Made by a program: the position numbers and the translations under genes. A DNA stretch of 43,572 bases from a virus. The stretch covers positions 1-43,572 of IMG/VR virus record IMGVR_UViG_3300008267_000307; one strand, 5' to 3'. The notes below the pieces were generated by a model, which was given only the letters and a program-made list of their open reading frames with translations, was not told where the DNA came from and made no database searches. Below are positions 4,355-42,244 of this stretch, one piece after another. Numbering within the stretch: the stretch's first letter is position 1; every line of letters begins with the position of its first letter.

Positions 4355-4363
4355 AGTTGTTAA
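4355..4363 (-). promoter_or_regulatory. TTAACAACT element, long-leader type
   Basis: Minus-strand TTTTAACAACTAA in the gap after the glycine-rich fibre gene, 80 bases before the next ATG, which has its own Shine-Dalgarno. Probable start of a transcript for the small virion protein, the acidic protein and the adaptor. Confidence 0.6.
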
Positions 4364-4377
4364 AATTCCTATTTAAA

Positions 4378-5418
4378 TTATTGGTAATATTCTTCGACGA
4401 TAATTACGCCAGAACCGCCAGTTCCGGCACTTCCTGTTGCAATCCCACCTGCTCCAATGGTGTATGAATATGTAGGAGAAGGATTAACGATTAATGCTTC
4501 AATATAACCTCCAGCAGCTCCGCCTGATCCTCCAATACCTGAACCTCCGCCATTACCACCACCACCTGATCCAGAATTAGGAGTTGCAGGAGTTCCACTT
4601 TGTGTGTACATCGAACCGCCAGCACCTCCAAATGGACTTGCAGCTCCCGCACCACCAGTCATTTCTGTTGTAGAAGATGTACTACCAACAGGAGTATCCC
4701 CACCTTTTAATGCAACAATAGAAATAGCTGGAGAATTTACAGAAACAGTTCCACCTAATCCCGGAGATCTTGGGTTACTGTTGCTTGCGCAAATACCGCC
4801 TTCACCACCATTTGCCGTTAGTAAAGACGATCCAAATGTTGTAGTTCCACCAGTTCCCGCTCTTGTTAAGTTACCAGCAGAGCTACCTCCACCACCTCCA
4901 CCAACCATTTTTATTCGAAGGTATTTAACATTTGGCGGTGTTGTATAAGTTCCAGATCCAACCGTAGTAAGTCGTTGAATTGTAGGAGCAGTAAACATTG
5001 CTGCTAATTGCGGAACTGTAATATCTGTTGGTGTAGCAGGAGATGCTGTATTGTTTGATTTAATTGTATAAGCAGGAGATTGAGATAATTTTACATTACT
5101 CACTGTTCCATCACCCGGAATACCAATAGAATAATTTGTTCCGCTTATTACTTCAATAATCGCCAAATTTAATGGCGCAGTATTAAATGTTAATACATTC
5201 CCAGAAACGTAATAAGTATCCTTGTTCTGATATACTCCAGAGATAAATACTTGAGTATTTACAGCAGATAAAGGAGAAATCGTTAAATTAAATACTTTTT
5301 GTGAACCAGTTCCAATGAACGCATCTCTAACAAGATTAGTTACACCAGTTCCAAATACATCCTGATTTGTGTTTTGTTTGATTAATGATTTTGATGCTAA
5401 TTTTCTTGTTAATGGCAT
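4378..5418 (-). CDS. Tail fibre/tip protein with glycine-rich domain
   Basis: 346 residues. Residues 1-110 resemble a virion-attachment beta domain (NLVRDAFIGTGSQKVFNLT). A linker follows, then a domain from ~165 to the end with many Gly runs (MVGGGGGGSSAG, GSGGGGNGGGSG). Such domains form polyglycine II sandwiches in some phage adhesin tips and carry host-range loops. AAGGAAATAAT precedes the ATG, 9 bases after the collar-domain gene. Role in host recognition is inferred from this architecture. Confidence 0.75.
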   Translation of the reverse strand: MPLTRKLASKSLIKQNTNQDVFGTGVTNLVRDAFIGTGSQKVFNLTISPLSAVNTQVFISGVYQNKDTYYVSGNVLTFNTAPLNLAIIEVISGTNYSIGIPGDGTVSNVKLSQSPAYTIKSNNTASPATPTDITVPQLAAMFTAPTIQRLTTVGSGTYTTPPNVKYLRIKMVGGGGGGSSAGNLTRAGTGGTTTFGSSLLTANGGEGGICASNSNPRSPGLGGTVSVNSPAISIVALKGGDTPVGSTSSTTEMTGGAGAASPFGGAGGSMYTQSGTPATPNSGSGGGGNGGGSGIGGSGGAAGGYIEALIVNPSPTYSYTIGAGGIATGSAGTGGSGVIIVEEYYQ

Positions 5419-5427
5419 ATTATTTCC

Positions 5428-5973
5428 TTAATAAGCGATGCAATAATTGACGTAAGCATTTGTTGGGCGAGTTTCATTACCACCATTATTTCCAATCATG
5501 GAATAAAAATCATATCCTATACTGGCATCGGTATTTGCCGCCGGAAAAGCGGTAAGTGTCGGCATCCCCGCAAATCCCCCAGTATTTGAAGAGCTTCGGT
5601 AAGCAGGATGGTCATGGCTTGCAAATTGACCGCCTTGAACTGAACCTATTAAATTCCCCGTATTTCCGTTCGCATTCATTGCTGTACGAGAGGTTTTATC
5701 CGGATCTTTGTTTGCAGTTCCATCTACACCACGAAGAAACTGTCCTCTAAAATCAGGAACATTAAAACTATTTCCATCAACGTATCCAAACGCAGTTCCA
5801 ATTACTGCGAATAATGCAGGATATGCAGCTCTTGAATAACTTGTTCCATCGCATAATAATGTTCTAGTTAACGCTCCGGTTGAACCACAAGGAAGAATTG
5901 TTCCGGCAGGAATGCCTGTGTATGTTGTAGATGTAATTGGAGTTCCGTATTGTACGCCAGCTATAAGAGCCAT
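5428..5973 (-). CDS. Phage tail-collar domain protein
   Basis: 181 residues that match the phage tail-collar domain: an early PxGTILPCG stretch (GTILPCGSTG), then LLCDGTSYSRAAYPALFAVI and the hallmark FNVPDFRGQFLRG at ~77-89. The C-terminal part (GNNGGNETRPTNAYVNYCIAY) matches the usual end of this family (ETRPxNxxVxYCI). These proteins occur in tail fibres and baseplate spikes. The ATG overlaps the stop of a 36-residue gene (TAATG) and has a GGAG ribosome site inside that gene. Confidence 0.9.
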   Translation of the reverse strand: MALIAGVQYGTPITSTTYTGIPAGTILPCGSTGALTRTLLCDGTSYSRAAYPALFAVIGTAFGYVDGNSFNVPDFRGQFLRGVDGTANKDPDKTSRTAMNANGNTGNLIGSVQGGQFASHDHPAYRSSSNTGGFAGMPTLTAFPAANTDASIGYDFYSMIGNNGGNETRPTNAYVNYCIAY

Positions 5974-6083
5974 TATAATTCTCCTTCAGGTACTTTAACT
6001 TTAACGACTACTTCAGTTTCCATACCTTCATTTACTTTGATAATATTTTCTTCTTTAGTTGTTTCTTTATTATCTTTTTGCAT
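5973..6083 (-). CDS. 36-residue acidic protein, unknown
   Basis: Short open frame starting MQKDNKETTKEENIIK and ending VKVKVPEGEL; lysine- and glutamate-rich. It starts 3 bases after the stop of the big C1q-type fibre and its stop overlaps the collar gene start, with AGGA upstream. The tight packing supports translation. It may only couple translation to the collar gene, or act as a small fibre accessory. Confidence 0.5.
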   Translation of the reverse strand: MQKDNKETTKEENIIKVNEGMETEVVVKVKVPEGEL

Positions 6084-6086
6084 GGA

Positions 6087-9000
6087 CTAGTTTCCTAACC
6101 TGATAATATCAATAAAATTACTATTACTTACTGTTGCACCAGAAAACACTCCTGCTACCGGAGTAACTGTATTTGATCCTGATCGAACATCAATATATTC
6201 TCCGGCATTTAAATGTACAATTGTAGTTCCCGGAATTGATGCCCCAGTTGCTTGGTTAGTAATACAATAACCCATATTTCTGTATATGCTTCCATTTTTA
6301 AAAACAGCCATTGTGTTATTTAGGCCAGTATTTATAATACTAGAAGAAATTTGATATTTACCACTAATAGGAGCGGTAAATTTCCAAACACCTGCACCAA
6401 TAGTTACTGCATTATGTGTATCAAATATTTTAGTATCAAAATTAAATTGAGTATTAATTGCAGTAGCTGCTGGTGTAGTTATTGAATAACTAGCGGTTAC
6501 CGTTTCTGTAGAAGTTATGACCGCAGGACCTGATAAACGTTCTAAACTAAACGCACTTTTTGATCCGGTAGGTGCGCTAATTGTATTATTTAAACGAACG
6601 TCAATTACATTTCCTGCATTAAATTGAAATAAAAATGAACCTTCAATATGTCCATTGCCATCTGCAGATCCGGAAACTGGCAACTGTTGAACATTGTCTT
6701 TATATACACTTGTTGCTGTATATAACGGAGGGTTAGCGGTAGTATATGTGTTTATTCTATAAATACCGGAAACTGGGATGGTGTACTTACCAGTAAGTGG
6801 ATTATATCCTCCATGTGTGTCAAAAGTCACAGTAGGAAAAACAATAGGATTATTTGCAGCAACTGCTGGTGCAGAACCTGTTGCCAACATAGCAACTACT
6901 CTAGTATCAGTGTCATTACTTGCAACAGAATTAGATGACCAACCAGAAATAGGTATTCTTGCAAACAAAGAACAAATTTGTCCTACTGTACCAAAAACCG
7001 AGTTTCCGTTTAGTTTTTGAAGTCCTGCAGTACCCGATCCTTGTTTTCCCAAAGTCAGATATGTAACCGAAGGCTCTATCAATACTTCTCCTGAAAATGC
7101 CTCAATATATGAAGTAGCAAATGATCCTACTTTAGAAAGACTGGGAATTTTTGTTATATCAGATGAAGTAAGACCTGAAGGAATACTAATTCTAGCTTCA
7201 GTAGAGGTTGACGAACCTACTGTAAATTTACCTTGTAATTCAATACTATCTCCAACTCGTCTCCAATTAAAATCTATAGATGTCGGAGTGCCAAGACCGG
7301 TAAATGTTGGAATATAAGATTGCCAATCGCTAATTGCTGGAGCATTTACGCTAATTTGTGGACCAACAAAGAAATCATCAAATACAACAGTACAATTTGT
7401 TGTATATGTGTTGATGTTTAAAATAACAATTCTATATTGAGTCCCTGTAGAACTAGTTTGGAATGTACCACTTGCATATCCTACACCATTAGTTTGAACG
7501 ATGTTATAAACGCCAGCAGGTTGAATCCAATTTGTTCCATCATGAAGATATACAGCAAGAGTGTTAGCTGAAGTACCAGAAGCATTAAATGCATTTGCTG
7601 TACCAGCATTAGCATCACTTGCTAATTTATATGCAAACTTAAATCCAAGAACTTTAGCTTGATCTTCAATATCAATGGTAAATGCTTTAGACGCAATACC
7701 CTTACCTTGAATTGAAACTCCGGTAGTCATTGCGCTATTTAAAGAATAATTTGCTGCTAATTGATTTACCGAAATTACAGTGTTTGTAATTCCTGTTACA
7801 GTAGAAACAAACGATCCTCCAGAAGGTATTTTTGTAGTAGCATCAATAGTTACACCGCTAACAAATTCCCAACCTGAAGTATCTCCAGTTTCAAAATCTC
7901 CATTACCCGGATTATTTTTGTATATGGTAATGTAGTTTTTCAAACCAGATCCGCCAGTAGATCCAGAAAGTCCTGCAGGTGCAACAAAATTACTTGGAGA
8001 TTGACGCTGAACAATTTGAATTGCGTAAGGAGTAGTAGAATAATCAGTATCAAGCTCAATTACAGAACTACTAATTTCTTTATAAAATGCCCCAGTAGTA
8101 AGGTAACTTCCTACCTGACGAGGAATAAATTGACCATTGATATAAACGTCAATAGCTCCGTATGTGTCAGGATTATTTGCTCCGTTAGAATAAGTCCAAT
8201 CAAGAGTAACTTGAGTTTTACCTGATACAGTGGAAAGAGTGCAATGTTGAGGAGTAATTGATCCGTCAAAACGTGCATATGCTTGGTTCAAAGTTCCTGT
8301 AGTAACAATAGGAGACTTTTGCATGTATGCGCGGTATTCAAGAAGATTTACAGTTCCAGATCCAACAGATACATTTGAAAAAAGCATTACATACAATGCA
8401 GTTCCGGGACTAGCAAATGTACCAGATTGAATTTGATCTGTTTGAAAAATTGGGCGAACTCCAGCATCCAACCAAGAAGTATTATTTTGAGAAACAGAAT
8501 ACCCTATTACTGGCACTATATTTGGAGTATAAACGCTTGTTGTAGAATCTTGATAATCAATTAAGAATTCAGAAAATTCAGAATTGTTAAATGCATTAGA
8601 AATAGATGCACCATCAAATACAGATCCGTATAATTCTTTAGAAGAAACAGCTTGAGATACAGTACAAGATCCAGATGCAGTGGTAAATGCAGAATTAATT
8701 GTCAATGGACTAAGTACAGTAATTTTACGAACTTCATTATTAAAAATAATGACATCACCTACAGCCATAAATGCAGGATTTACTGCAAGTGTTGGAGTTG
8801 TAGTATTACCATTAGTGATAGTAGTATTTTCGTATTGAATACTATAATATTGATTTAAAGAACTCCAAGATGCTGTAGTTGCAGTTGGATTAATAGAAGA
8901 AGATGATGCAGTATTTTGATCTTCAAACGTATCTAAAATACGAGCGCGGAAAGCTGTTGCAAGAATGTCATCATTAGATCCACTTGCATCTCCGCCGCCA

Positions 9001-9647: not shown

Positions 9648-9660
9648 TATAAGTTACTCA

Positions 9661-10438: not shown

Positions 10439-10445
10439 CAACTAT

Positions 10446-10454
10446 AGTTGTTAA
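10446..10454 (-). promoter_or_regulatory. TTAACAACT element, 7 bases before a start codon
   Basis: Minus-strand TTTTAACAACTATAGTTGATG, directly between the metallopeptidase gene and the membrane-protein gene. The start codon 7 bases on has no purine-rich ribosome site. Confidence 0.65.
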
Positions 10455-10456
10455 AA

Positions 10457-11290: not shown

Positions 11291-11358
11291 GTTTCTCTCC
11301 GTTTATCTACCAATCGACATTGATTAGTAAGTAAATATAAAGAAACATAAACAAATAT

Positions 11359-11367
11359 AGTTGTTAA
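11359..11367 (-). promoter_or_regulatory. TTAACAACT element right behind the capsid terminator
   Basis: It overlaps the 3' end of the terminator T-tract on the minus strand (TTTTTGTTTTAACAACTAT). The leader to the lipoprotein ATG is 68 bases and has a stem-loop (ACTAATC/GATTGGT) and a 13-codon frame (11307-11348). Because a terminator hairpin fills the upstream side, a normal -35 box is unlikely. Confidence 0.7.
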
Positions 11368-11400
11368 AACAAAAAGGGGGCAGATCAGTGATCCACCCCC
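11366..11400 (-). terminator. Intrinsic terminator after the capsid gene
   Basis: Minus strand: GGGGG, a TG mismatch, GATCA-C-TGATC, a TG mismatch, CCCCC, then TTTTTGTTTT. A strong G+C stem and T-tract, 26 bases after the capsid stop codon. Confidence 0.9.
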
Positions 11401-11425
11401 TCTTATTTATTTATTAACTAATCAA

Positions 11426-12670
11426 TTAAGCTTGGTTAACAATGTTTTTAATGAGTACGTTTTTACCCGGAGAAGCACAGAAAATTGCTTGGTCGGTGTA
11501 ACAACGAAGTTCGTAACCAGAAGCATTTTCAAGATCACGGAAGAAACGGCCATCTGCACCCGGACGTTGGAAGGTAACGTCGGTAGAACCAACGCGAGCC
11601 CAGTCTTCAGCGTACAGGATGTAAGCGTAACCTTCTTTAACGTAGATGGATGGAACGATTTCGATCTCACCATTCTGAGAATGGAACAAGAGAGATTCAG
11701 AACCGTTTTCAGCCTTCTGCTTAGAGTAAGAACCATCGTACTTACGGAGAGCAGCTTGGTCGTTCATCATGTTAGCCCAAGCGCGTGGGTTAACAAGTGC
11801 AGTTACTTTTGCTTCCAAACCTTTTTCTACAGCGCGAGCGATAGATTGATTGAGTTTAGAGAAAGAAAGAGCACCGTTTTGTGCATCGTACTCGTTACCT
11901 TTAAACAAGTTGTAGGTAGAAGTATCGATGTTGAAGAGAACGCCACTGGTAGTCAATACTTTGTGAATACCAACGAATTCGTTACCGTATGCACCTTTGT
12001 GCCAGATAACATCGCCACCAACAATACCTGCAGGAGCAGCATCAACGTTAACAATTTTAGTATCCATGTTAACAGATACTACATTGCAGTAACCTTTGAG
12101 AACGCCAGCAGAAGAGCGGATTTCGAGAGGCATGTTTTCAGCACCTGCCCAGATACCCGGAGCCCATTCAGCGGTAGTGATAGTGATTGCGTTAGTAGTG
12201 ATTGAACCTACAGTTGCATAACCAACTTGACCGTAGATCATTTCGATCTCAAGTTTTTTAACCATAGAACGAAGCATGTTACCAACAACAAACTTAGTTG
12301 CATCCATGAATGCTTGTGCTCCACCTTGTGCTGCGCGGGAAGCTGCAGTGTAACCAAGGATAGAACGGAGAACCGCTGGGGATCCACGAACTTGAGCATC
12401 TTTGATTGCGCCAGAGATTGCTGGAAGGAGAGCAAAAGCATCATCTTCGCTAGATGCGAAAGTGATACCGTGTTCCAAACCAAGAACAACTGGTTGGTGG
12501 TAGAGGTTACCCGGCTGTTTATCTTTAGACATGAATTTAATCATGTTCAAGATTTTAACGCCATCTGGGATAAGCTCTTTCATTTTATCAGCGTACACTT
12601 CTTTGAACAAACCGTTCAAATTACCGACCGTATTATCGGGAGTACTAAATACGTTAGCTACATTAGACAT
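11426..12670 (-). CDS. Major capsid protein, HK97-fold type
   Basis: 414 residues. It follows the scaffold and a small probable decoration protein and is followed by a strong terminator, the usual place for a highly expressed capsid gene. Start MSNVANVFSTPDNTVG; a helical N-arm with KILNMIKFMSKD; a long helix near 125-150; a beta-rich middle; and a C-terminal LYAEDWARVGSTDVTFQ segment like the P-domain of many podovirus capsids. Codon use looks richer in G+C than its neighbours, as for abundant proteins. AAAAGGAAATAAAATAAT precedes the ATG. Function is from context and overall pattern. Confidence 0.88.
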   Translation of the reverse strand: MSNVANVFSTPDNTVGNLNGLFKEVYADKMKELIPDGVKILNMIKFMSKDKQPGNLYHQPVVLGLEHGITFASSEDDAFALLPAISGAIKDAQVRGSPAVLRSILGYTAASRAAQGGAQAFMDATKFVVGNMLRSMVKKLEIEMIYGQVGYATVGSITTNAITITTAEWAPGIWAGAENMPLEIRSSAGVLKGYCNVVSVNMDTKIVNVDAAPAGIVGGDVIWHKGAYGNEFVGIHKVLTTSGVLFNIDTSTYNLFKGNEYDAQNGALSFSKLNQSIARAVEKGLEAKVTALVNPRAWANMMNDQAALRKYDGSYSKQKAENGSESLLFHSQNGEIEIVPSIYVKEGYAYILYAEDWARVGSTDVTFQRPGADGRFFRDLENASGYELRCYTDQAIFCASPGKNVLIKNIVNQA

Positions 12671-12703
12671 ATTATTTTATTTCCTTTTTATTATTTATTT
12701 TTA

Positions 12704-13015
12704 TTATTCAGCAACAACGTAGTGAACGATGATGCAATCACCAGAAACTGGAGCTACAGCAAAAGTTGGAGTGATAACAGAACCAGAGATAGCTACAGCA
12801 GTAGGAGCTACCAAGTTTCCGCCAGCAGCAAGAACTTTATAAATTACTGGAGCATTACCTGTGTAGGTAGATACTGTTTCTTTTACGTCGATGTCTGGGG
12901 TAACAGTTGCAAAATCAGATACAATTTGAGTATCTTCAATGTGCAACATGAGGGTTTGGAATTTAAGAGAAACGGCTTGAACTTCCGCTTTCTTAGGTTG
13001 ATAAGCAATAGACAT
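12704..13015 (-). CDS. Small virion protein, possible head decoration
   Basis: 103 residues. Residues 1-35 start MSIAYQPKKAEVQAVSLKFQ; the rest is Val/Ala/Thr-rich beta sequence (TAVAISGSVITPTFAVAP). It has one of the best ribosome sites in the window (AAAAAGGAG, 8 bases before the ATG) and sits between scaffold and capsid genes, so it is probably made in large amounts. A decoration or capsid-stabilising protein is the natural guess; no family is recognised. Confidence 0.7.
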   Translation of the reverse strand: MSIAYQPKKAEVQAVSLKFQTLMLHIEDTQIVSDFATVTPDIDVKETVSTYTGNAPVIYKVLAAGGNLVAPTAVAISGSVITPTFAVAPVSGDCIIVHYVVAE

Positions 13016-13056
13016 TTTAATGTCTCCTTTTTGTTTATTTTTGTTAATTAGTTATA

Positions 13057-13072
13057 GAATACTATTGTATTC
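13057..13072 (-). promoter_or_regulatory. Stem-loop in the decoration/capsid leader
   Basis: Perfect 6-base-pair stem GAATAC/GTATTC with a 4-base loop, in the 143-base leader between the TTAACAACT element at 13159 and the strong ribosome site. A second, weaker stem (AATTG/CAATT) lies nearer the element. Possible mRNA-stability element for the capsid transcript. Confidence 0.45.
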
Positions 13073-13158
13073 CGGTTATTACTCATCTTTAGGGTAGTAA
13101 AAGCATCCAATTGGGTAGCAATTCGTCCTGTACGATGAAAAAAATTTTATACACCACT

Positions 13159-13167
13159 AGTTGTTAA
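13159..13167 (-). promoter_or_regulatory. TTAACAACT element overlapping the scaffold stop codon
   Basis: The scaffold TAA stop is part of the element (GGATTTTAACAACTAG). It heads a 143-base leader to the small virion protein and capsid genes, which would let these be expressed apart from the scaffold. Confidence 0.65.
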
Positions 13168-14123
13168 AATCCGAAAAACTTTTTATAATCAACTTTATCA
13201 GCGGATTTTTGAGTTTGTTTTGACGCATTATTTACAACTTCTTTGATGCCAGCTTTAGCTGTAGCTGGAGTTACTTGACCGGCTTTAGCTTTAGCAATAT
13301 TTCGTTTACGGAAACGAGTCATTACTTCTTTCCCGATAAATTCTTCAGCAGCTTCTTCGCCCAAAGAATTAATGATGGTTTTAAGGTCACCAAGTAATTC
13401 TTCACGAACAAGTGGCAAAACATCTTTAGGACTAAGATCGATATTCCGTTTAGCACCCAAAAGCATATACTCAGCCATCTTACGAACAACATAAGGTGTT
13501 TTAGGAAGATCACTAGTTTCCAGTGCTTCAGACATTTGATTGTCGATTCGTTCATATTCAATCTGTTGAATACGTTCAAATTCTTGACGCTCATACTCTT
13601 CTTTTTCACGAAGTCTTGCTTCTTTTTCTTTCTTCAGTTCTTCTTGCAATTCCATCGCTTGAAGCTGTTCTGGAGTTAATTGTGCCTTTTTGATTTCTTC
13701 TTCGATTACTTGAGCCGCAAATTCTTTAGGATCAATCCCCATTTGCATCAAGTATTCTCTGGTATTGGATTTCATTCCTTGGAAGAAATGCTTTACTTGT
13801 TGCTCATAGCTTGCTTTTTCTTGCATAGCACGTTGAGCAGCTTTACCCAATTGAAGATTCTTAGTTAAGTAATCAATTACTTCTGGATCTTCTTCAATTT
13901 CAAACGGCAATTCTTCTTCAAATTCTTGTCCGTGTACTTTAAGTTTTAGTTTATTTAGGCGTTTAATTTCCGCCTGAGATTTAGTGGCTAAACCACCTTC
14001 GTTTTCGCTAGATTCTACGTCTTGATCTTGCATCTCAACGTTTGAATCAACTTCACTGCCAGCATTAAGCGCAGCGTTATCTACTGGAGCAGACAGTGCT
14101 GCACCACCATTTTCGTTTGCCAT
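13164..14123 (-). CDS. Capsid scaffolding protein
   Basis: 319 residues, very charged and helical. Residues 1-45 are acidic and disordered. A long coiled coil (about 140-200: KKEKEARLREKEEYERQEFE) fills the centre. The end is basic (VDYKKFFGF), the usual capsid-binding end of scaffolds. It lies immediately upstream of the decoration and capsid genes, as scaffolds do. TTAAAAGGAAACAAT gives a clear ribosome site. Confidence 0.85.
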   Translation of the reverse strand: MANENGGAALSAPVDNAALNAGSEVDSNVEMQDQDVESSENEGGLATKSQAEIKRLNKLKLKVHGQEFEEELPFEIEEDPEVIDYLTKNLQLGKAAQRAMQEKASYEQQVKHFFQGMKSNTREYLMQMGIDPKEFAAQVIEEEIKKAQLTPEQLQAMELQEELKKEKEARLREKEEYERQEFERIQQIEYERIDNQMSEALETSDLPKTPYVVRKMAEYMLLGAKRNIDLSPKDVLPLVREELLGDLKTIINSLGEEAAEEFIGKEVMTRFRKRNIAKAKAGQVTPATAKAGIKEVVNNASKQTQKSADKVDYKKFFGF

Positions 14124-14219
14124 ATTGTTTCCTTTTAAGTCGTCTTTCGATAGACTAATTGGTATCTATCCGGCTATTCGGGTAAGATGATTATTGTTTG
14201 ATTAATAGCAATCACTTAA

Positions 14220-14228
14220 AGTTGTTAA
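14220..14228 (-). promoter_or_regulatory. TTAACAACT element upstream of the scaffold gene
   Basis: Overlaps the TAA stop of the 59-residue gene. The leader to the scaffold ATG is 96 bases and carries a small stem-loop (GTCT/AGAC type) before the AAAGGA site. Confidence 0.6.
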
Positions 14229-14404: not shown

Positions 14405-14405
14405 A

Positions 14406-14567: not shown

Positions 14568-14568
14568 A

Positions 14569-17869: not shown

Positions 17870-17878
17870 AGTTGTTAA
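17870..17878 (-). promoter_or_regulatory. TTAACAACT element with an overlapping stem-loop
   Basis: Directly follows the TAA stop of the LamG gene. Its last two bases start a perfect hairpin (CTAATAT/ATATTAG, 5-base loop), 25 bases before the next ATG, which has only a weak AGG. Confidence 0.6.
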
Positions 17879-21437: not shown

Positions 21438-21866
21438 TTATTCAATATCGTAATAAATTATAAGTTTATCATCAGGTTCTAAAAATCCATCAAGACTTAA
21501 TCCATTCCAACTTAGTTCCTGACCATTTACCGTATAATCTATTCCATATCTTTGTAGCGTCCCTCCTTCCAAATTCAAAATTAATGAATCTGGAAATGCG
21601 GGTAAATTCGTTAACGTTACTTTTTTATCCGCTACAGTTTGAGTTGTTAATATAATATTATCATTTATTGTTCTGTACTCTTTTTTATTTTTAAACTCTG
21701 TGTAATCTTCTGCAGACAATGCTCCGGGAGTCGTTTCTGTAGCAAGTGCAATAGAAATTGTATTTCCTGTAACAATTAATCCGTTAGAAGAACCATCAAT
21801 AGGAATTTGAACTACAGCAGTATAATACTCTAAAGCTCCAGTTAAAAAATTAAAACGAAGTGCCAT
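21438..21866 (-). CDS. Fibre-associated protein, unknown
   Basis: 142 residues, starts MALRFNFLTGALEYYTAVVQ. The C-terminal part (RYGIDYTVNGQELSWNGLSL) shares the GIDYTV pattern with the end of the 798-residue fibre, so the two may share a domain. Probably part of the same fibre complex. It contains an in-gene TTAACAACT copy (21642-21650) coding Leu-Thr-Thr, which may be chance. Confidence 0.7.
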   Translation of the reverse strand: MALRFNFLTGALEYYTAVVQIPIDGSSNGLIVTGNTISIALATETTPGALSAEDYTEFKNKKEYRTINDNIILTTQTVADKKVTLTNLPAFPDSLILNLEGGTLQRYGIDYTVNGQELSWNGLSLDGFLEPDDKLIIYYDIE

Positions 21867-22380: not shown

Positions 22381-22389
22381 AGTTGTTAA
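22381..22389 (-). promoter_or_regulatory. TTAACAACT element, 6 bases before a start codon
   Basis: Contains the TAA stop of the upstream repeat/membrane protein gene (AATTAACAACTAATTATATGG). No ribosome site for the next gene. Confidence 0.65.
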
Positions 22390-22827: not shown

Positions 22828-22836
22828 AGTTGTTAA
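22828..22836 (-). promoter_or_regulatory. TTAACAACT element, 7 bases before a start codon
   Basis: The TTAA of the element closes a perfect 8-base-pair hairpin with upstream TTAATATA (TTAATATA/TATATTAA). No Shine-Dalgarno before the ATG. Confidence 0.65.
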
Positions 22837-32342: not shown

Positions 32343-32351
32343 ATTTGTTCC

Positions 32352-32633: not shown

Positions 32634-32634
32634 T

Positions 32635-33048: not shown

Positions 33049-33054
33049 AGTAAA

Positions 33055-33063
33055 AGTTGTTAA
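33055..33063 (-). promoter_or_regulatory. TTAACAACT element, 6 bases before a start codon
   Basis: Four bases after the portal stop codon (CAATAAAAAATTAACAACTTTTACTATGG). No ribosome site for the next gene. Confidence 0.65.
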
Positions 33064-33067
33064 TTTT

Positions 33068-35110
33068 TTATTGCGGCATCATATCCGCTGGATTAGTGGG
33101 AAGATTTTCAAATGGAGCAGGTGGAGTAGGCATGTTTGGCATTTCACTTCCGCCCGGATTTCCCTGTCCTTTAATCATTTCTTCTGGTGTAGATGGCATT
33201 CCTGTTGGAGGTTGCATCATCTGATCCATTGGTGCGCCTTGCGCTCCTTGTTGTGCTTGAGGATTTTGCAACGGTTGTTGGCCTGTCATCATCAATACGT
33301 CAGGATCAACGTTACGAAGCATATCAATATGCTCTTCCATGTGAGTTTGCACAGCTTTTCTAAGCACTGGATCCATACGAAGCTCTGGATCAGACAAAAG
33401 ACCGCGATGTTCCATGATATGCAACTGATGCGTATCAAAAATATCAGCCATTACTTCTTTTCCTTCCATCATAAACTCATTTTCACGCTTAATTAGGAGA
33501 AGTTCGTTCATGTCAGACTCATACATGGTTTCAATTGCACCAGTATTGATGACTTGGAAGTACTCTTGAGGGTTTTTTATGAGGCCCATCTGAAGCATTT
33601 GCTCGGCCATTTGAACACGACCAGCAGTAGTGCGAGCAAGGGGATTACCGACGGTAACAATAACGCGATTAATATCTTGAATGCTATCGGAAGTGAATTC
33701 TTTGAGCATTGGTCTGTTGTTTTTACCGACGAGAGATATAGTTTTTGGCGTTTTGGCATAATCTTTCAAAATGGAAATCAAAGATGTTCCAATTTGTTCA
33801 ATTAATTTTACATAATTGTGCTGAAGACCGGAAATAAACTGTAAAGACATCGACTGAACGAGTGCCAATGCAGTTCCAGACTTCAATGATGCTTCTGGAT
33901 TACCTCTTGTTACAGAGTTTACTCCAGAAATAGTTTCCATCATGGTTTCTAGGGTTTGAAGGAAGCTAAAAATCTCTGGAGCAGTGGCAGTGAGAGCCAA
34001 AGCTTCAGGTTTTTCATTTCCTTCGATAATATTTAATGCTCCTTCAAGAGAATTGATGTTTAAATCCGATCCTCTTGGAACAAACAAGTTTTGTACACCG
34101 AATGCTGACTGGTTAGTAAGGATTGTGCTGTACAAAGAATTAACTGCTTCTTGTAATGGGAACAAATCAAACATCGGAGTATATCCGTATGGAGTTCCCA
34201 TGTACTCACCTGCAGATACACGGAAAATTGGGATCTGGCGGTATGGTAACGGCATATCCAGAAGTGCTAAATCTGCATCTAAAAACAAAATATATCGACC
34301 ATCTGGCATTGCTTCGGTTCTTTTATGAAATAATTCATATACCGGAATGTCATCAGTTTGGTCGTTTGAAAACATGCTTAAACGATATGACGTAGTTGCC
34401 ATATTTTTAGTTTGCATGCCCAAAATCTTTTCTTTTAACTCAGGGTATTTTGCTGCAAGATTAAAGCGGTTCTGGAATGTTCGAACCAAGATCCACTCCT
34501 GATCCCAAGATTCCTTCGTGCCATCAAACACAACATCAAAAGGGGAAAGTGTGTTGAATTCGATTTCTCCTTCAAAATTTTTCTCACCAGTTTCTGGATC
34601 GAAATCGTACAGTTCTCCGGAAGTTGCATTCCACTCTAAGCGCACGAATCCACTGCCAAGAACGACAGCCATTTCTGTTGCACGACGGATGCAATCTTCA
34701 AGACCTTTTTCACGCATGTAATAATCAAGAATTCCGTTTGCGAGATAGGTCTGAGCTAATGATTTATAATCGGTATTAACCGCTCTGGCTTCCATTACAG
34801 GACGATTGGCGGTAATCATGTTAAGAATGTGTTGACCGATGTTACGGAAGTGATTTACAGCCAAGGAAGCGAGTTCGCCTTCTTCACCAGTGAAGCTAAC
34901 GCGATGGGTATCACCAGCAATAGTGGCATTGTATTGGCCATGATAGAAAAGCCAATTGCGAACCAACTGATCTAAATAGTAATTTTGTGATAGAACATTA
35001 TAGAATGAACTTGCGCGGTTTAATGCCTCGCTAGTAACGCGATCAATGGAATCTGCAGCCCAATAGACATCGCCTTTGCTCACTCTATTATCAGCACTAT
35101 AAATACTCAT
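33068..35110 (-). CDS. Portal protein
   Basis: 680 residues, the size of podovirus portals of the SU10/P22-like type. The helical N-terminal part holds ASFYNVLSQNYYLDQLVRNW. The middle has PYGYTPMFDLFPLQEAVNSL, a clear portal-type segment, and a long crown helix (ASLKSGTALALVQSMSLQF). The C-terminal ~100 residues are Pro/Gln/Met-rich and disordered. It starts in overlap with the terminase stop (TAATG), the usual order terminase-portal. It forms the DNA channel at one capsid vertex. Confidence 0.92.
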   Translation of the reverse strand: MSIYSADNRVSKGDVYWAADSIDRVTSEALNRASSFYNVLSQNYYLDQLVRNWLFYHGQYNATIAGDTHRVSFTGEEGELASLAVNHFRNIGQHILNMITANRPVMEARAVNTDYKSLAQTYLANGILDYYMREKGLEDCIRRATEMAVVLGSGFVRLEWNATSGELYDFDPETGEKNFEGEIEFNTLSPFDVVFDGTKESWDQEWILVRTFQNRFNLAAKYPELKEKILGMQTKNMATTSYRLSMFSNDQTDDIPVYELFHKRTEAMPDGRYILFLDADLALLDMPLPYRQIPIFRVSAGEYMGTPYGYTPMFDLFPLQEAVNSLYSTILTNQSAFGVQNLFVPRGSDLNINSLEGALNIIEGNEKPEALALTATAPEIFSFLQTLETMMETISGVNSVTRGNPEASLKSGTALALVQSMSLQFISGLQHNYVKLIEQIGTSLISILKDYAKTPKTISLVGKNNRPMLKEFTSDSIQDINRVIVTVGNPLARTTAGRVQMAEQMLQMGLIKNPQEYFQVINTGAIETMYESDMNELLLIKRENEFMMEGKEVMADIFDTHQLHIMEHRGLLSDPELRMDPVLRKAVQTHMEEHIDMLRNVDPDVLMMTGQQPLQNPQAQQGAQGAPMDQMMQPPTGMPSTPEEMIKGQGNPGGSEMPNMPTPPAPFENLPTNPADMMPQ

Positions 35111-36570
35111 TATTTTTTAACCTTTAAATTTAATATCTTGCGATAGATGTTTTCATTCTCTATCGGATTAGATGTATTTCTATTAAATAAATCTTCACTT
35201 CTAGTTGTTAAACCAAAGCCTTTTGGATACGGATTTAATTTGAAATCTACTGCTCGTAGTAAATAAGCAAGAGCATCTACTGCGTCATAATGCGAACCTT
35301 CTGGACAACGAGAGAAGGTATCTTTGTTTGTCACAGATGCCCATTTTGCATTTTTTAAATGTCTAATGGTAACTTTACATCGAGGATTGATGTATAGTTT
35401 ATTATTTTGCACCATTAATCGGAGGAAGTTAATTGCTGCATGCTTGTCATCTTTTTTTGCAGGTTCAAATCTAACCTGATAATTAGTGGCTTTTAAGATT
35501 TCATTAATTGCCACTAGGTTGTGATCGGCTACACGCTTTTTAGGACGCATAAATTCGTTACTCATTGGGTCAGTGAAGAGCTTTTCTTCCATTTTCTTGA
35601 TGTCCCAGCCAAGTGTATGCAAATGCATATCCTGTCCGTAGGTTACAAGCTCATCTTCAACCACCACTTTATCTTCCTTGAAATCATAGTAAGCAAAGAG
35701 GACCACGGTCCAATCCTTGTAGCCCAAATCCATAGAGACATATGAACTAAAAAATGGGGGTTTAGGCCACGCCTTAACGACCTCTTTTTCTTTATCATCA
35801 GTAAATTCAGGTACAACAGTTCTCGTTGTAGATTTGATAATTTTGCAATAAAGTTCTCGTTGTGTTGCTTCACTGTTCGGACCACCAAGCTCCAAAATTA
35901 AATCTTCTTTTTCTCGTTTATCAATACGGGGATTATCTTCAATTGTTTTTACAACAAGAGATCCTCTTGCATCAGCTTCTTCAATAAAACGAATAAAATC
36001 GTGCTCAATATCTTCAGGAGGAGTAGAAGCTAATAGAATTTTACCTTTGGTAATTAATGTGGTGGGAAGCAAGATGTCTCGGATGCAGTAACTAAGGTCA
36101 GTACAACTACCAGCCTCATCCACGATAGCTAAATCTGAGTCACCACCACGGAGTCTCTCAGCACTCCCACCATCTGTACCGGAAAGTTGAATCTCTGATC
36201 CATTAGGAAAGTAAAAAATGTTATCTTTTGTCTTATAGTCAGGCTTTAGATCTTCTGGACAAGTCTCGAGAATTTTTCTCATCAACGGACGAATGATCAA
36301 ATTGACCTGAACGCGAGTAGGAGCCAAAAACTTTACGATTGCTCCGGGCTTTTTAAGACAAGTTTCAATAGCAAGTACACAAAGAGCGTAAGACTTACCA
36401 GAACGACGAGCTAAAAGCCAAGTTTGAACCCTATGTGTTGTGTTATAATACAATTCATACAGTTCTTTTTGGTTTAAATCGAGAAGCCAAGACAAATTTC
36501 CTCTTCGCCAAAGCGTTTCTCTTACTAATTTCGGATCTACTTTAGACGGTGGCACGAGGTTGTTCGACAT
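35110..36570 (-). CDS. Terminase large subunit
   Basis: 486 residues, normal size. ATPase part: Walker A-like LLARRSGKSYAL with ARRSGKS at 54-60, Walker B LAIVDE at 147-152, and the ASTPP coupling motif at 181-185. Nuclease part: Asp281 in VSMDLGYKDW, Asp349 in KKRVADHN and Asp429/Asp432 in HYDAVDALAYL fit the RNase H-like metal ligands. It pumps and cuts DNA during packaging. It overlaps the upstream gene by 29 bases and the portal by one base or so. An in-gene TTAACAACT lies near its end (35203). Confidence 0.96.
   Translation of the reverse strand: MSNNLVPPSKVDPKLVRETLWRRGNLSWLLDLNQKELYELYYNTTHRVQTWLLARRSGKSYALCVLAIETCLKKPGAIVKFLAPTRVQVNLIIRPLMRKILETCPEDLKPDYKTKDNIFYFPNGSEIQLSGTDGGSAERLRGGDSDLAIVDEAGSCTDLSYCIRDILLPTTLITKGKILLASTPPEDIEHDFIRFIEEADARGSLVVKTIEDNPRIDKREKEDLILELGGPNSEATQRELYCKIIKSTTRTVVPEFTDDKEKEVVKAWPKPPFFSSYVSMDLGYKDWTVVLFAYYDFKEDKVVVEDELVTYGQDMHLHTLGWDIKKMEEKLFTDPMSNEFMRPKKRVADHNLVAINEILKATNYQVRFEPAKKDDKHAAINFLRLMVQNNKLYINPRCKVTIRHLKNAKWASVTNKDTFSRCPEGSHYDAVDALAYLLRAVDFKLNPYPKGFGLTTRSEDLFNRNTSNPIENENIYRKILNLKVKK
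35203..35211 (-). promoter_or_regulatory. TTAACAACT copy inside the terminase gene
   Basis: In frame it codes Leu-Thr-Thr. It lies 92 bases before the portal start, a distance similar to the long-leader copies, so it could drive the portal operon; chance is also possible. Confidence 0.35.
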
Positions 36571-36967: not shown

Positions 36968-36973
36968 GTACTT

Positions 36974-36982
36974 AGTTGTTAA
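36974..36982 (-). promoter_or_regulatory. TTAACAACT element, 6 bases before a start codon
   Basis: Minus-strand AATTTAACAACTAAGTACATG in the 28-base gap before the probable small terminase. It would head the packaging and portal transcript. Confidence 0.65.
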
Positions 36983-36995
36983 ATTCTAGGAAACA

Positions 36996-38177: not shown

Positions 38178-38417
38178 TTACCAACCCTTATTTAGAGCGA
38201 TCAATAGTACCGCGAATATTACGGAAAGGAGAAGCCATCGGAGATGGGGACGACTAGGCATTCCTTGCATTTGTTTAAGATCAGCAGATTCGCCCATGTT
38301 TGCTGGCATGCGATCTTGAGGCATATTTTGAACCATAGCCAAAAGTTGCTGAATTTGTTCTGGAGTAAGTTCGTTTTGAAAACCTACGTCTTCTTCACCT
38401 TGAAATCTGTTATTCAT
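38178..38417 (-). CDS. Small tail-anchored membrane protein
   Basis: 79 residues. Residues 1-58 are hydrophilic with a helical patch (LTPEQIQQLLAMVQNMPQDR). The end is one membrane segment (RWLLLSVIFAVLLIALNKGW). It shares a cluster with another membrane protein (38419) and the endolysin, so a lysis or membrane-docking role is possible. AAAGGTAATTTAAA precedes the ATG. Confidence 0.65.
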   Translation of the reverse strand: MNNRFQGEEDVGFQNELTPEQIQQLLAMVQNMPQDRMPANMGESADLKQMQGMPSRPHLRWLLLSVIFAVLLIALNKGW

Positions 38418-38418
38418 T

Positions 38419-38706
38419 TTAAATTACCTTTTTAAAGTTTTGACTCATTTTCATTCCAGCTATTGCAGTTTTTAATGAATCAATTTCAGTAGCCATCTTC
38501 ACGATTACTTCGTTTTGTTTAGCTACAGTCTCAACTACTTCGTGCAGTTTTAAATTCTTTTTATTACCTGTAAATTCTTTTACTGCCATAAGAGCAGTAA
38601 GTCCTATCGCAACACCGCATTCTGCAGGTGTAACACCATTAACTACCAATTTAAAAATAAATAGGCAGTACAAAGCCATCGGCAAAACATTATAAATCTT
38701 ATCCAT
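38419..38706 (-). CDS. Membrane protein, holin-like candidate
   Basis: 95 residues from the ATG at 38706 (MDKIYNVLPMALYCLFIFKL), chosen because AAGGAG lies 10 bases upstream; a longer GTG start at 38757 has no proper spacing. Two hydrophobic segments (about 6-22 and 30-45) precede a coiled coil (ETVAKQNEVIVKMATEIDSL). The 'TPAECGVAIGLTALMAVKEF' part resembles small phage proteins near lysis genes. Holin or spanin-type function is tentative; the endolysin is ~1.5 kb upstream. Confidence 0.6.
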   Translation of the reverse strand: MDKIYNVLPMALYCLFIFKLVVNGVTPAECGVAIGLTALMAVKEFTGNKKNLKLHEVVETVAKQNEVIVKMATEIDSLKTAIAGMKMSQNFKKVI

Positions 38707-38773
38707 GATTAAATACACTCCTTGTAATTTTGGCGATAAAATAAACAGGGATTGCACCTCTTTACTTTGTGTT

Positions 38774-38804
38774 ACGATAGGAATCGTTGCAGGTATGAAT
38801 ACCT
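38774..38804 (-). promoter_or_regulatory. Two tandem stem-loops in the leader of the holin-like gene
   Basis: AGGTAT/ATACCT (2-base gap, so likely a shorter stem with a 4-base loop) at 38791-38804 and ACGAT/ATCGT with a 4-base loop at 38774-38787, between the element at 38831 and the ATG. Neither is followed by a T-tract, so they are leader structures rather than terminators. Confidence 0.45.
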
Positions 38805-38830
38805 ACTGGTTATTCCATCGCCATACCAAT

Positions 38831-38839
38831 AGTTGTTAA
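38831..38839 (-). promoter_or_regulatory. TTAACAACT element, long leader with a 4-codon frame
   Basis: It follows the stop of the 457-residue gene. Six bases on lies an ATG that opens only M-A-M-E-stop (38810-38824); the true gene starts 124 bases away. Confidence 0.6.
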
Positions 38840-38840
38840 G

Positions 38841-40214
38841 TTAGTTCTTTGGACGCATTTGTTTATTTTTCATTGAAAGTGCTTCGTCTAAAAATCTTTG
38901 CCAAGATGCTTCATCTTTAGGATTAATTTCTCTATATTTTTCTACAATACCACTAATTAATGGTCTATTATTTGCATTAGGAGCATATATTTCTTTAAAA
39001 AACGCTTTTAATTCGTTTTCATTAAGCGATGCAATACCATCTGTTTCAACAATCATATCTTTAGCGGTAATTAGTTTTGGATGAGGGGGTAATTTTTTTC
39101 CGCTTTGATATGGTTGATTTTTGGGATTTGCATATCGAGGAGACATCTCCATATTTTGCAATTCTGCGTATTTACCGTATTCAGGATCAGATGTTCGTTC
39201 CAGTATTTTTTTAAAAAATTCAGGGTCTGATCTATCTAAGCTCTCAGCATATCGTTTAGCGGAATTATCAAGATGTGTTAATTTTCTGATAAAGTAATCC
39301 GTTTGAGAATCATCTAATCCCATAGCATTAAGTTCTTGCATTGCTTGCTCAGTACTCATTCTACCGGTATTTAAATTATCAACAATGCCACCTATTTTTT
39401 CGTGGTATTTTGGTCGTCCAAAAGACGGATCGTATTGTTTTTCTATTAAGTCAGTTGTTTGTTTATTTCGTTTACTTAGTAGTTGATTTGGAGGCGTTTG
39501 TGGACGATTCCGGAGTTCTTCCATTTTAGCTTCTTTTAGTTTTTCTTCCGGTATTAATTTTTCAGTTTCTTCTGTAGTTTGTCTAGGAGATACTTCTACT
39601 GGAGATTTTGGACCGTATCGATCTCTTAAACCTTGTCGTTCTTTATATAATTGTCCTAAACCTTCTTTTACTTCCATTCTGGGATTAACTACCATTTGCG
39701 GTATTTCTCTTGGAAGCTTAGGTAAAACAGTTCCTCGTATTAATGGAAACGCTGCAGCCATTAGAGCAGGGTCTAACGCCATTTCTGTCCCTGCACCTAA
39801 AACATCTTTCATCTTCAATGTTGCTCCGGGAACTTCAGGAACAGGTGCGCCTATTTTTTGTTCTAGCGCTCCTACTATATCTTCTCCGCTTGCATCATCT
39901 TTATCTATTCCAGATAATTTTCCATACACCTTATTTCTTACAAAAGATGCAGGAGCATCAGCAACGTTTGAGCCAGCTTGCAATGCCCGTAAAATAGCGT
40001 CAGGACGTTCGCTTAAATTAATAGGAGTTCTATCTTCTCTACTCTCCATAGCAAGAGGATATAACTTACTTGTTAGATATTCGTTTACATCATTTGCTGT
40101 TCCAGTAAGTCCTGTAAACTGTTCGGGAGATTCTTCCAATTCTGCATCTAATGGCAAATCTGGATCTCTAGTTTCTTTACCTAAAGTGCTATACGTCTTT
40201 GAAAATTTTGGCAT
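38841..40214 (-). CDS. Probable internal virion protein, unknown
   Basis: 457 residues, very hydrophilic and rich in Pro/Glu/Lys. A helical part near 100-180 has GADP-like turns and a mildly hydrophobic stretch (VLGAGTEMALDPALMAAAFP). A long charged middle follows (PEEKLKEAKMEELRNRPQTP). No enzyme motif. It lies between the endolysin and the membrane-protein cluster, in front of the packaging genes. Ejection-type or scaffold-associated function is a guess. AAGGGTAACTGTA precedes the ATG. Confidence 0.6.
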   Translation of the reverse strand: MPKFSKTYSTLGKETRDPDLPLDAELEESPEQFTGLTGTANDVNEYLTSKLYPLAMESREDRTPINLSERPDAILRALQAGSNVADAPASFVRNKVYGKLSGIDKDDASGEDIVGALEQKIGAPVPEVPGATLKMKDVLGAGTEMALDPALMAAAFPLIRGTVLPKLPREIPQMVVNPRMEVKEGLGQLYKERQGLRDRYGPKSPVEVSPRQTTEETEKLIPEEKLKEAKMEELRNRPQTPPNQLLSKRNKQTTDLIEKQYDPSFGRPKYHEKIGGIVDNLNTGRMSTEQAMQELNAMGLDDSQTDYFIRKLTHLDNSAKRYAESLDRSDPEFFKKILERTSDPEYGKYAELQNMEMSPRYANPKNQPYQSGKKLPPHPKLITAKDMIVETDGIASLNENELKAFFKEIYAPNANNRPLISGIVEKYREINPKDEASWQRFLDEALSMKNKQMRPKN

Positions 40215-40229
40215 TACAGTTACCCTTTA

Positions 40230-40667
40230 TTAGTACTTCCATGTGACATGTGTACCTTGTACCTTTGCAGGTCTAGTATCCACATGCAGGAATGTCTTAG
40301 CGATACCGATGTAAGAAAACAGCTTCTTTGCGTCTTCTAACCACGCCTCTACGCTACTAAGAGAATTAAACTTTACATCTGCAGCATTACCAAGTTCATG
40401 CTGGCTACGTTTAGCAACCACTGTAGATGTCCCACTGTTACGGATATCTTCTTGATGCTTAGTACAGCGAAACCCTGACGTGATAGTTAACGGAACGCTT
40501 TTCAACTCGCGTAAAGAGCTTAGACGCTTTATAAGGTCTTCGCTGATCTTCTGATCGACACAATCATCGTACTCACATTGACAAGCAAATTCTGTTGTAT
40601 TGAAATATTCGTTGATCTTTATCCGATCACCTTTTCTCCAGCGATAGTATCCATTCTCAGGCTTCAT
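40230..40667 (-). CDS. Endolysin, M15 family peptidase
   Basis: 145 residues, the usual length of M15_3-type phage endolysins. It carries the zinc motif SxHxxGxAxD as SQHELGNAAD at 88-97 (His90, Asp97), the later HVD at 128-130 (His128), and an ITSGFRC strand at 62-68, all in the expected order. It should cut the peptide cross-links of peptidoglycan at lysis. No signal peptide, so it needs a holin. The ATG overlaps the stop of the preceding gene (ATGA). Confidence 0.9.
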   Translation of the reverse strand: MKPENGYYRWRKGDRIKINEYFNTTEFACQCEYDDCVDQKISEDLIKRLSSLRELKSVPLTITSGFRCTKHQEDIRNSGTSTVVAKRSQHELGNAADVKFNSLSSVEAWLEDAKKLFSYIGIAKTFLHVDTRPAKVQGTHVTWKY

Positions 40668-40866
40668 TACGTTTTACCTCTTTGTTAATCTGTTTTTTGT
40701 ATGCTTCCATTTGACATTCGATCATGTCAATCTCACCAAAATCTTTAGCTCCATGCCACGCATCCACTAGCTTTTGTATGGTCTGATCTCCTTTGTCATA
40801 CAAAAGGGTGAATTCTCGCACGACATCATTACTCGGCGTGTATAACCTTTTATTGATCGCTGTCAT
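40657..40866 (-). CDS. Small helical protein, unknown
   Basis: 69 residues from the ATG at 40866 (MTAINKRLYTPSNDVVREFT); a longer upstream frame exists but overlaps the zinc-binding gene heavily and lacks a ribosome site. The helix FGEIDMIECQMEAYKKQINK lies near the end. It overlaps the zinc-protein gene by 17 bases and the endolysin by 11, so the three are co-translated. No family recognised. Confidence 0.65.
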   Translation of the reverse strand: MTAINKRLYTPSNDVVREFTLLYDKGDQTIQKLVDAWHGAKDFGEIDMIECQMEAYKKQINKEVKRNEA

Positions 40867-41098
40867 ATTCCGCTTCCTTCTTGATACGATTAACCCGGCG
40901 ACGAAGACGTTGATTGCGTGATTTCTTTTCACTGTCACAGGGAGGACAGAGTCTTCCATTGAACTCTCTTCCTGTCTCAGCATCCACCCACTTCTTATCC
41001 TTCTTGTTTGGATAATAACCTGCGAATGTACGCTTCACTTCACGCTTACAATGTTTACATTCAATAATACTATATTCTTCTTGTTTAATTTCATCCAT
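40850..41098 (-). CDS. Small zinc-binding protein (two CxxC pairs)
   Basis: 82 residues. Cys14-x-x-Cys17 (ECKHCKREV) and the later CPPC (RLCPPCDSEKK) could bind one zinc ion between them, with the loop AGYYPNKKDKKWVDAETGRE. The C-terminus is a very basic helix (NQRLRRRVNRIKKEAE). Small zinc-ribbon proteins of this layout are common in phages; the role is probably DNA binding. The ATG is 9 bases after a TTAACAACT element and lacks a Shine-Dalgarno. It heads the endolysin transcript. Confidence 0.7.
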   Translation of the reverse strand: MDEIKQEEYSIIECKHCKREVKRTFAGYYPNKKDKKWVDAETGREFNGRLCPPCDSEKKSRNQRLRRRVNRIKKEAEYDSDQ

Positions 41099-41107
41099 GT
41101 AAACAAT

Positions 41108-41116
41108 AGTTGTTAA
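41108..41116 (-). promoter_or_regulatory. TTAACAACT element, 9 bases before a start codon
   Basis: Minus-strand AATTTAACAACTATTGTTTACATGG; the ATG has no Shine-Dalgarno. It would drive the zinc-protein/endolysin set. Confidence 0.65.
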
Positions 41117-41669
41117 ATTATCTTCCTAGATCCAGCCCACATATATACTAAAATACAAGGCACCAATCAGAGAATACACCTTCCCTTGACGGCGATGATC
41201 TTCGATCGAATCTGTATTATCTGATTAATTTCTGAGTGATGTAGTGGGAGCCGAAGCGGAAACGAAATCACCTGAGCGAAGCGAAGTTGTTCTTCATCTA
41301 ATTAACAGGTTCCATTTGATACACTACACCCGATTTACCAGATAACGAATTTTTTTTATAAAATTCATCAACCTTATACGAGGTAGGAATTAGATTACTA
41401 TCGACAATTTCATCTAAAACCTTGTGACCATATTTCAGATCATGTCATGCTCGGATTGATGGAGCGAGTGCTGTATCCCTCTGACTCCTGTCATTTCTCC
41501 ACTTGGCTTTCCGCTCAGAACTTATACTAACTAGTTCGACTCTGAGTGCAGGTGCATCGCTGCTATTGAATCTTACGACTCTCAGTTAACCTGCTTTACC
41601 CGACCTGTGATACAATCTTATGTACGCTTTTTTACGGTCCAAATGGGTCAATCTTAGAAGCAATTAGCT
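41117..41669 (-). other. Gene-poor stretch with coding relics
   Basis: No intact gene. It holds a 13-codon frame (41632-41673, MKLIASKIDPFGP) behind a TTAACAACT element, then ~180 bases with only two stops in one frame. A 48-codon open stretch without an ATG follows (41298-41444, LKYGHKVLDEIVDSN... ending YQMEPVN). Nearer the next gene, another frame reads GKVYSLIGALYFSIYVGWI. These look like pieces of broken genes. Part of it (41240-41290) has a GAAGCG-type composition unlike the rest. No tRNA seen. Confidence 0.5.
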
Positions 41670-42227
41670 TCATAGAGAGTTGTTAAAATGAAAGGATCTA
41701 TTTTGAATAAAGTCTTTGGTGAGATCATTGTCTGCAATGACTAATCCCTTATCTGTGAGCTTATAATTGGGATAGTGCGTTGATATGAACTTCTTAGCTT
41801 CCTCTACCTTATCAAACACACCCAATATCGTCTTAGGTCTTGTTCCTAGAATCATGTACACAATCACACAAAAGTTCTTATGACGATTTCTGGCTATGTG
41901 CATCTTAATCTTTGGTTTCGTAGAACGAAGCATACTAACATACTGCGTATAACCTTGAGCTACATACTCGTCATTATACTTGACTAATTTAGTTTGTCTT
42001 ATGAACTTATCTGGTTCTATTTCTATAATCTCTAACACTACCTTACCAGATTCTATGTCATTCTTTAGTTGACTAAATTTATCTTGCATCAACTGCGTAG
42101 AGAACATATTCCTAACATGACCTACCATAGACTGAGATTCAGACACATAAAATCTCTTGTCTACATCATTCCTATAAACTACAATTACATCCTTTTTAAA
42201 CAGATCAGATAGATTAAAACTACTCAT
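41670..42227 (-). CDS. Unknown protein, first gene of the minus-strand set
   Basis: 185 residues from the ATG at 42227 (MSSFNLSDLFKKDVIVVYRN); the longer start at 42272 would place the TTAACAACT element inside the gene, so the shorter is preferred. Two similar halves are hinted at: VIVVYRNDVDKRFYVSESQS near the start and FCVIVYMILGTRPKTILGVF later, both followed by helices. Basic, no known motif. The stop overlaps the ATG of a 13-codon frame (ATGA). Possibly regulatory, given its place beside the control region. Confidence 0.65.
   Translation of the reverse strand: MSSFNLSDLFKKDVIVVYRNDVDKRFYVSESQSMVGHVRNMFSTQLMQDKFSQLKNDIESGKVVLEIIEIEPDKFIRQTKLVKYNDEYVAQGYTQYVSMLRSTKPKIKMHIARNRHKNFCVIVYMILGTRPKTILGVFDKVEEAKKFISTHYPNYKLTDKGLVIADNDLTKDFIQNRSFHFNNSL
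41678..41686 (-). promoter_or_regulatory. TTAACAACT element, 4 bases before a 13-codon frame
   Basis: Lies within the 3' end of the 185-residue gene and is followed by ATGAAGCTAATTGC. The frame ends after 13 codons, so the gene it served may be broken. Confidence 0.55.
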
Positions 42228-42235
42228 ATAATTCA

Positions 42236-42244
42236 AGTTGTTAA
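42236..42244 (-). promoter_or_regulatory. TTAACAACT element, 8 bases before a start codon
   Basis: Rightmost copy, in front of the first minus-strand gene (GAATTAACAACTTGAATTATATGAG). No Shine-Dalgarno. Confidence 0.65.

Follow-up and report, generated by a model that had tools for sequence, protein, structure and literature searches.

Promoters of T7-class single-subunit RNA polymerases combine a rigid specificity block, an AT-rich melting stretch and a purine start, and the core of the T4 late promoter is AT-rich. In T4 a split sigma (gp55/gp33) recognises the late promoters, and phage proteins redirect the host polymerase (PMC2988020). In phiEco32 and 7-11 the phage sigma factor gp36 reads promoters with the consensus TAATGTATA (PMC4331800), and AR9 uses its own multisubunit polymerase on late promoters of the form AACA-N6-T[A/G], with leaders of at least 26 nucleotides (nt) (PMC5312081). 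Here we analysed the whole 43.6-kb (43,572 nt) IMG/VR virus record IMGVR_UViG_3300008267_000307, hereafter the window, in which the 9-base word TTAACAACT is very probably the recognition core of a phage-specific promoter for the structural (late) genes, at about 16 sites. We class the element with a known kind, the phage-specific late promoter; it differs in sequence, spacing and machinery from those of phiEco32, T4 and AR9. A literature search on the 9-mer returned only papers on unrelated subjects.

The window is a late module without an early region, and its genes for terminase, portal, major capsid and tail-type proteins are all on the minus strand. Exact TTAACAACT was found 16 times on this gene-bearing strand and not once on the plus strand; dinucleotide shuffles gave a mean of 1.16 copies (maximum 4) and none of 100 reached 16. 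The 9-mer is rigid, because the excess almost vanished when one mismatch was allowed (37 versus 25.5 expected). Three copies overlap the preceding stop codon (13159, 14220 and 22381) and a fourth abuts it (17870). Two are clearly intragenic, at 21642 and, near the end of the terminase gene, at 35203, with the copy at 41678 lying within a gene's last codons. The base after ACT is A in 11 of 15 sites (21642 excluded). An ATG stands 4 nt past the 41678 core and opens a reading frame of 13 codons only, and the automatic gene table misses an 82-amino-acid (aa) gene whose ATG lies 9 nt from the core at 41108. An earlier note on this DNA had listed the same 16 minus-strand coordinates with none in the opposite direction, expected about one copy per window by chance, placed fourteen copies at or between gene ends and four on or against a preceding stop codon, and named A as the commonest base after ACT; all of this held on recount. 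Beyond that note, the element is conserved across the family, has an AT-rich continuation ending in T-purine, and varies at position 8 of the 9-mer in relatives.

Megablast of the window against annotated phages found nothing. Just one annotated phage, Silvanigrella phage CP017838, had a capsid protein related over its full length (29.5% identity), and neither TTAACAACT nor an obvious equivalent word was present in it. Terminase and capsid scans of IMG/VR yielded about 50 relatives, some of them 70-90 kb in length, and one contig was found in a proteobacterial metagenome-assembled genome (MAG). The word is conserved in this family of uncultivated phages of about 70-95 kb. In these relatives the late genes occupy one strand, and the other bears an early block with helicase-primase, DNA polymerase, nucleases and ribonucleotide reductase. 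TTAACAACT is confined to the capsid-gene strand in most of them, and 13 assembled related records held 119 copies on the late strand versus 11 on the opposite one, 8 of these 11 preceding a same-orientation gene within 100 nt. An opposite-strand copy in G005 lies 6 nt from the listed start of an M15-peptidase gene. Similarly, an inverted back-to-back pair, AGTTGTTAATTAACAACT, in the G015 contig (80241-80258, locus L098) looks like a divergent promoter pair, with the ATG of the opposite-strand gene 6 nt away. The early strand was only mildly enriched in host sigma70-like promoters. In the host MAG NORP111 TTAACAACT was not enriched (18 versus 33 for the reversed word), a comparison that is weak because its own phage contig uses TTAACAAGT.

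The positions of the element are also conserved. It is kept at orthologous junctions: in front of the 308-338-aa gene that precedes the capsid block, in front of the gene that follows, and behind the capsid gene and a 138-aa gene. A motif search in relatives was proposed in the earlier note; in G003, the closest relative with an early region (92% capsid identity), 13 of 15 comparable window sites have an exact counterpart at the same junction (0.7 expected), although the flanks are only 71.5% identical.

The full element consists of an AT-rich stretch, then TTAACAACT-N5-T-[A/G]. Aligned TTAACAACT sites showed a T peak at index 14 and a purine at index 15, where C never occurs, and this pattern persisted when sites with an ATG at that place were excluded. 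Spacing from core to start codon has a hard edge: a single site at 3 nt, none at 0-2, 4 or 5 nt, and then 10, 7 and 6 sites at 6, 7 and 8 nt. Against a uniform spread over 0-9 nt the edge at 6 nt has P of about 4e-9, to be read as a guide only, as are all P values here, because the counts take in some close relatives. Start codons lie 6-9 nt past the word at 24 of 123 sites, and leader lengths range from 0 to about 150 nt between sites. We propose that the core would occupy -15 to -7, with the predicted first transcribed base a purine 6 nt past it. A start at this point would explain both the hard spacing edge and a leaderless class. Where the ATG lies 6-9 nt past the core the message would begin at or within about 3 nt of it, so that roughly one site in five would yield an mRNA with no leader or almost none; elsewhere a leader of about 5-150 nt is predicted. 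At 9 of 130 sites an intrinsic terminator ends no more than 60 nt upstream, versus 2 of 520 random places, and this recurs after the capsid gene.

On the capsid tree the TTAACAACT group forms one clade (support 100/99). Outside it, the late word is TTAACAAGT in G017, N111 and G011, TTAACAGAT in L043, TTAACAAAT in G034 and G040, and AACAAAT with free first bases in G033 and G038. These words occur mainly on the late strand with T-purine at an equal distance, most clearly in the first three groups with enough sites. In TTAACAAGT relatives the frequencies are 95% for T at index 14 and 100% for a purine at index 15; the values for TTAACAAAT relatives are 88% and 100%. Variation in the core is concentrated at -9 to -7, and the core therefore behaves as a recognition sequence would. 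It defines a late transcription signal for a widespread, practically uncultivated phage family, and from it late genes and their start points can be marked in a simple way. We infer the late timing from gene content (terminase, portal, capsid, tail); promoter activity, the start site and use of the host polymerase are likewise predictions from sequence. In G038 (L188-L192), about five copies of a noncoding repeat around GGCCCTAACGTCAGCGCCCTTT also lie on the late strand.

The genes that might read the promoter were studied in the early regions of relatives, because the window has none. The earlier note had suggested looking for a phage-encoded RNA polymerase or sigma-like factor, and this search, run in related genomes, found neither. 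Since no phage polymerase was detected, a phage-encoded factor would most likely redirect host RNA polymerase to the promoter. The candidate for this factor is an early-strand protein predicted to carry winged-helix domains of RFX/D5 type, and its gene stands beside that of a small basic partner of 140 aa; the two adjacent genes were present in essentially all genomes holding that part of the early region. AlphaFold predicted two winged-helix domains in the first protein (pLDDT 87). The closest solved folds were RFX5 (Z 7.4) and RFX1 bound to the X-box (Z 6.5), followed by the phage P4 origin-binding domain (Z 6.1) and the D5-like end of the African swine fever virus (ASFV) PrimPol (Z 5.6), with Foldseek E values that were not significant. 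Pfam Pox_D5 matched 12 of 35 members (best 1.2e-6). PDB sequence searches with both proteins returned nothing, and the basic partner gave no informative structural match. Known RFX/D5-type proteins share the predicted fold but bind X-boxes or replication origins, and the winged-helix protein could instead act in replication or packaging. As late-promoter reader it is our leading candidate, one that is conjectural and that we rate at clearly less than an even chance. A promoter role for such a domain in phage late transcription would, to our knowledge, be new and, if true, a new way to set promoter specificity.

The two-domain form, which in G003 is encoded at L080:16141-16929, is found in TTAACAACT phages. 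The one-domain form, encoded in N111 at L142:3294-3623, is found in G017, N111, G011, G033, G034 and G038, none of which has TTAACAACT as its main late word. The G040 protein (L176:2346-2966) combines one winged-helix domain with an unrelated second half. By eye this half resembled an AP2 domain; Pfam gave no match and we do not claim one. Across the relatives, a natural series of cores, with C, G or A at one position, is paired with architectures of one candidate DNA-binding protein. How these phages redirect transcription, with neither a polymerase nor a sigma factor detected, can thus be tested directly. TTAACAACT contains an AAC-AAC repeat. A joint scheme, in which the tandem RFX/D5 winged-helix protein and its basic partner replace sigma in setting late-promoter specificity, the second domain was gained as the ancestral core AACAA(A/G)T became TTAACAACT, and many late messages are leaderless, is rather unlikely to hold in all its parts.

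Host RNA polymerase could also be directed by a sigma-like factor other than the winged-helix protein, comparable to phiEco32 gp36 or T4 gp55. We regard this as a serious possibility, short of an even one. It draws on phiEco32 and 7-11 (PMC4331800), which likewise have a single box of about 9 bp, several copies before structural genes and late and early blocks on opposite strands. T4 promoters (PMC2988020) are similarly short, consist of a downstream element only and occur in many copies among the late genes; redirection of the host polymerase by phage proteins, established there, is what we propose here. Against such a factor, no match to sigma region 2 or 4 was obtained at E<=1 in 11 records, a search that could miss diverged sigma mimics, whereas phiEco32 and 7-11 carry a recognisable sigma gene and T4 a sigma-2-like reader. 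The core, moreover, contains CAAC and is not AT-rich like TAATGTATA, and there are more copies here than in phiEco32 and 7-11.

A phage RNA polymerase, too diverged for detection or encoded outside the studied records, is an unlikely reader. The rigid core, AT-rich stretch and T-A-G resemble single-subunit polymerase promoters such as those of T7, and the arrangement AACA-N8-T-R is reminiscent of the AR9 late promoter (PMC5312081), in which an AACA block is also followed by T and a purine start. In AR9, however, T-purine follows after 6 bases rather than 8, and neither kind of polymerase was found in the relatives. The T7-type profile PF00940 had no match in 28 related records (T7 positive control 9.9e-110), the Rpb1-type profile PF04998 was negative in 16 records with 14 of 14 controls positive, and no DxDGD-type catalytic motif was matched in a convincing open reading frame (ORF). 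G018, which has a 69-base stretch identical at both ends, encodes no polymerase-size early protein without another assignment. We abandoned a T7-like register of the element (A, C, A, C and T in common with the T7 promoter) because the polymerase was not found.

The phage-specific promoter put forward in the earlier note is strongly supported by conservation, orientation, geometry, terminators and variants; that note had also offered a translation signal or an mRNA processing signal, both of which are now disfavoured. A leader word that guides ribosomes or a phage protein to the start codon would fit the sharp cluster of starts 6-9 nt past the word, a typical ribosome-binding distance. Most copies, however, lie outside that distance, between 10 and about 150 nt from the start, and some of the long leaders are conserved; the word lacks purine-rich Shine-Dalgarno character, copies stand behind terminators, and T-purine keeps its place at sites with no nearby ATG, which together make this reading very improbable. 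Equally improbable is a nuclease that cleaves one long late RNA at the word to give new 5' ends at junctions: it would suit the strand specificity, the junction positions and the overlap of some copies with stop codons, but readthrough RNA should be scarce directly behind the strong intrinsic terminators at 9 sites, the inverted G015 pair resembles divergent promoters, and the AT-rich stretch with T-purine is promoter-like.

Several observations weigh against a late promoter read in the way we propose. Intragenic copies exist, at 21642 and at some sites in relatives, and L033, a relative within the TTAACAACT capsid clade, has no exact copy in 18 kb. With C at -11 and -8, the core does not look like the AT-rich -10 box that melts in sigma-type promoters, and a normal holoenzyme would have little space beside a factor that sits 6 nt from the start. 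The candidate reader has been identified in relatives alone, and its domain number correlates with the core variant along one branch of the tree; the TTAACAACT group being one clade, this amounts to one coincidence of changes and not several. In the host MAG NORP111 TTAACAACT was not enriched (18 versus 33 for the reversed word), a comparison that is weak because its own phage contig uses TTAACAAGT.

Table 1 Predicted promoter cores and associated features in the window; distances run from the core to the ATG.
Feature	Position	Strand	Context
Late promoter core (predicted)	42236..42244	-	ATG of GIY-YIG-like gene (42227-41670; assigned by sequence inspection) 8 nt downstream
Late promoter core (predicted)	41678..41686	-	In preceding gene's last codons; then about 550 nt without a long ORF; orthologous site in G003
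Late promoter core (predicted)	41108..41116	-	ATG of small CxxC-type gene (41098-40850) 9 nt downstream
Late promoter core (predicted)	38831..38839	-	ATG of small membrane protein gene about 124 nt downstream; orthologous sites in several relatives
Late promoter core (predicted)	36974..36982	-	ATG of 141-aa gene, just upstream of terminase, 6 nt downstream; predicted leaderless
Late promoter core (predicted)	35203..35211	-	Within 3' end of terminase gene; portal ATG 92 nt on; conserved in G003
Late promoter core (predicted)	33055..33063	-	ATG of 81-aa gene 6 nt downstream; predicted leaderless
Late promoter core (predicted)	22828..22836	-	ATG of 144-aa gene 7 nt downstream
Late promoter core (predicted)	22381..22389	-	Overlaps stop codon; ATG of 168-aa gene 6 nt downstream; predicted leaderless
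Copy inside 142-aa gene, weakest case	21642..21650	-	Next ATG 232 nt on; word at same place in G003
Late promoter core (predicted)	17870..17878	-	Abuts stop codon; ATG 25 nt downstream
Late promoter core (predicted)	14220..14228	-	Overlaps stop codon; 96 nt before 319-aa gene ahead of capsid block; orthologous in most relatives
Late promoter core (predicted)	13159..13167	-	Overlaps stop codon of 319-aa gene; next ATG 143 nt on; leader length conserved (125-157 nt) in several relatives
Late promoter core (predicted)	11359..11367	-	Just past capsid-gene terminator; next ATG 68 nt on; terminator and core recur in relatives
Late promoter core (predicted)	10446..10454	-	ATG of 89-aa gene 7 nt downstream
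Late promoter core (predicted)	4355..4363	-	ATG of 80-aa gene 80 nt on; orthologous site in G003
Intrinsic terminator of capsid gene (predicted)	11372..11404	-	Hairpin of -22 kcal/mol and T run; ends just before core at 11367
Major capsid protein gene	11426..12670	-	phrog_14242, E 9.4e-14
Portal protein gene	33068..35110	-	PF16510, phrog_156
Terminase large subunit gene	35110..36570	-	PF03237, phrog_2

Further observations concern the surroundings of these sites and the relatives. The 319-aa gene ahead of the capsid block may encode a scaffold, a guess from its position. In L033 a TTACCAACT-like word perhaps stands at the usual place. G018 is a relative that looks complete, and its early region (L100-L103) has genes for an integrase, a PHB-regulator DNA-binding domain, an FlbD-like protein and a response regulator; these hint that it may be temperate and may interfere with host regulation. 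Rfam gave no match anywhere in the window. On its minus strand, between the elements at 41678 and 41108, about 550 nt (41116-41672) lack a long ORF; some 366 nt of this interval are 88% identical to G003 and mildly structured (z -1.6), and it is a possible noncoding RNA or decayed gene. Finally, the leaders at 14123-14219 and 13015-13158 keep their length in most relatives (68-96 and 125-157 nt, respectively) and contain possible hairpins.

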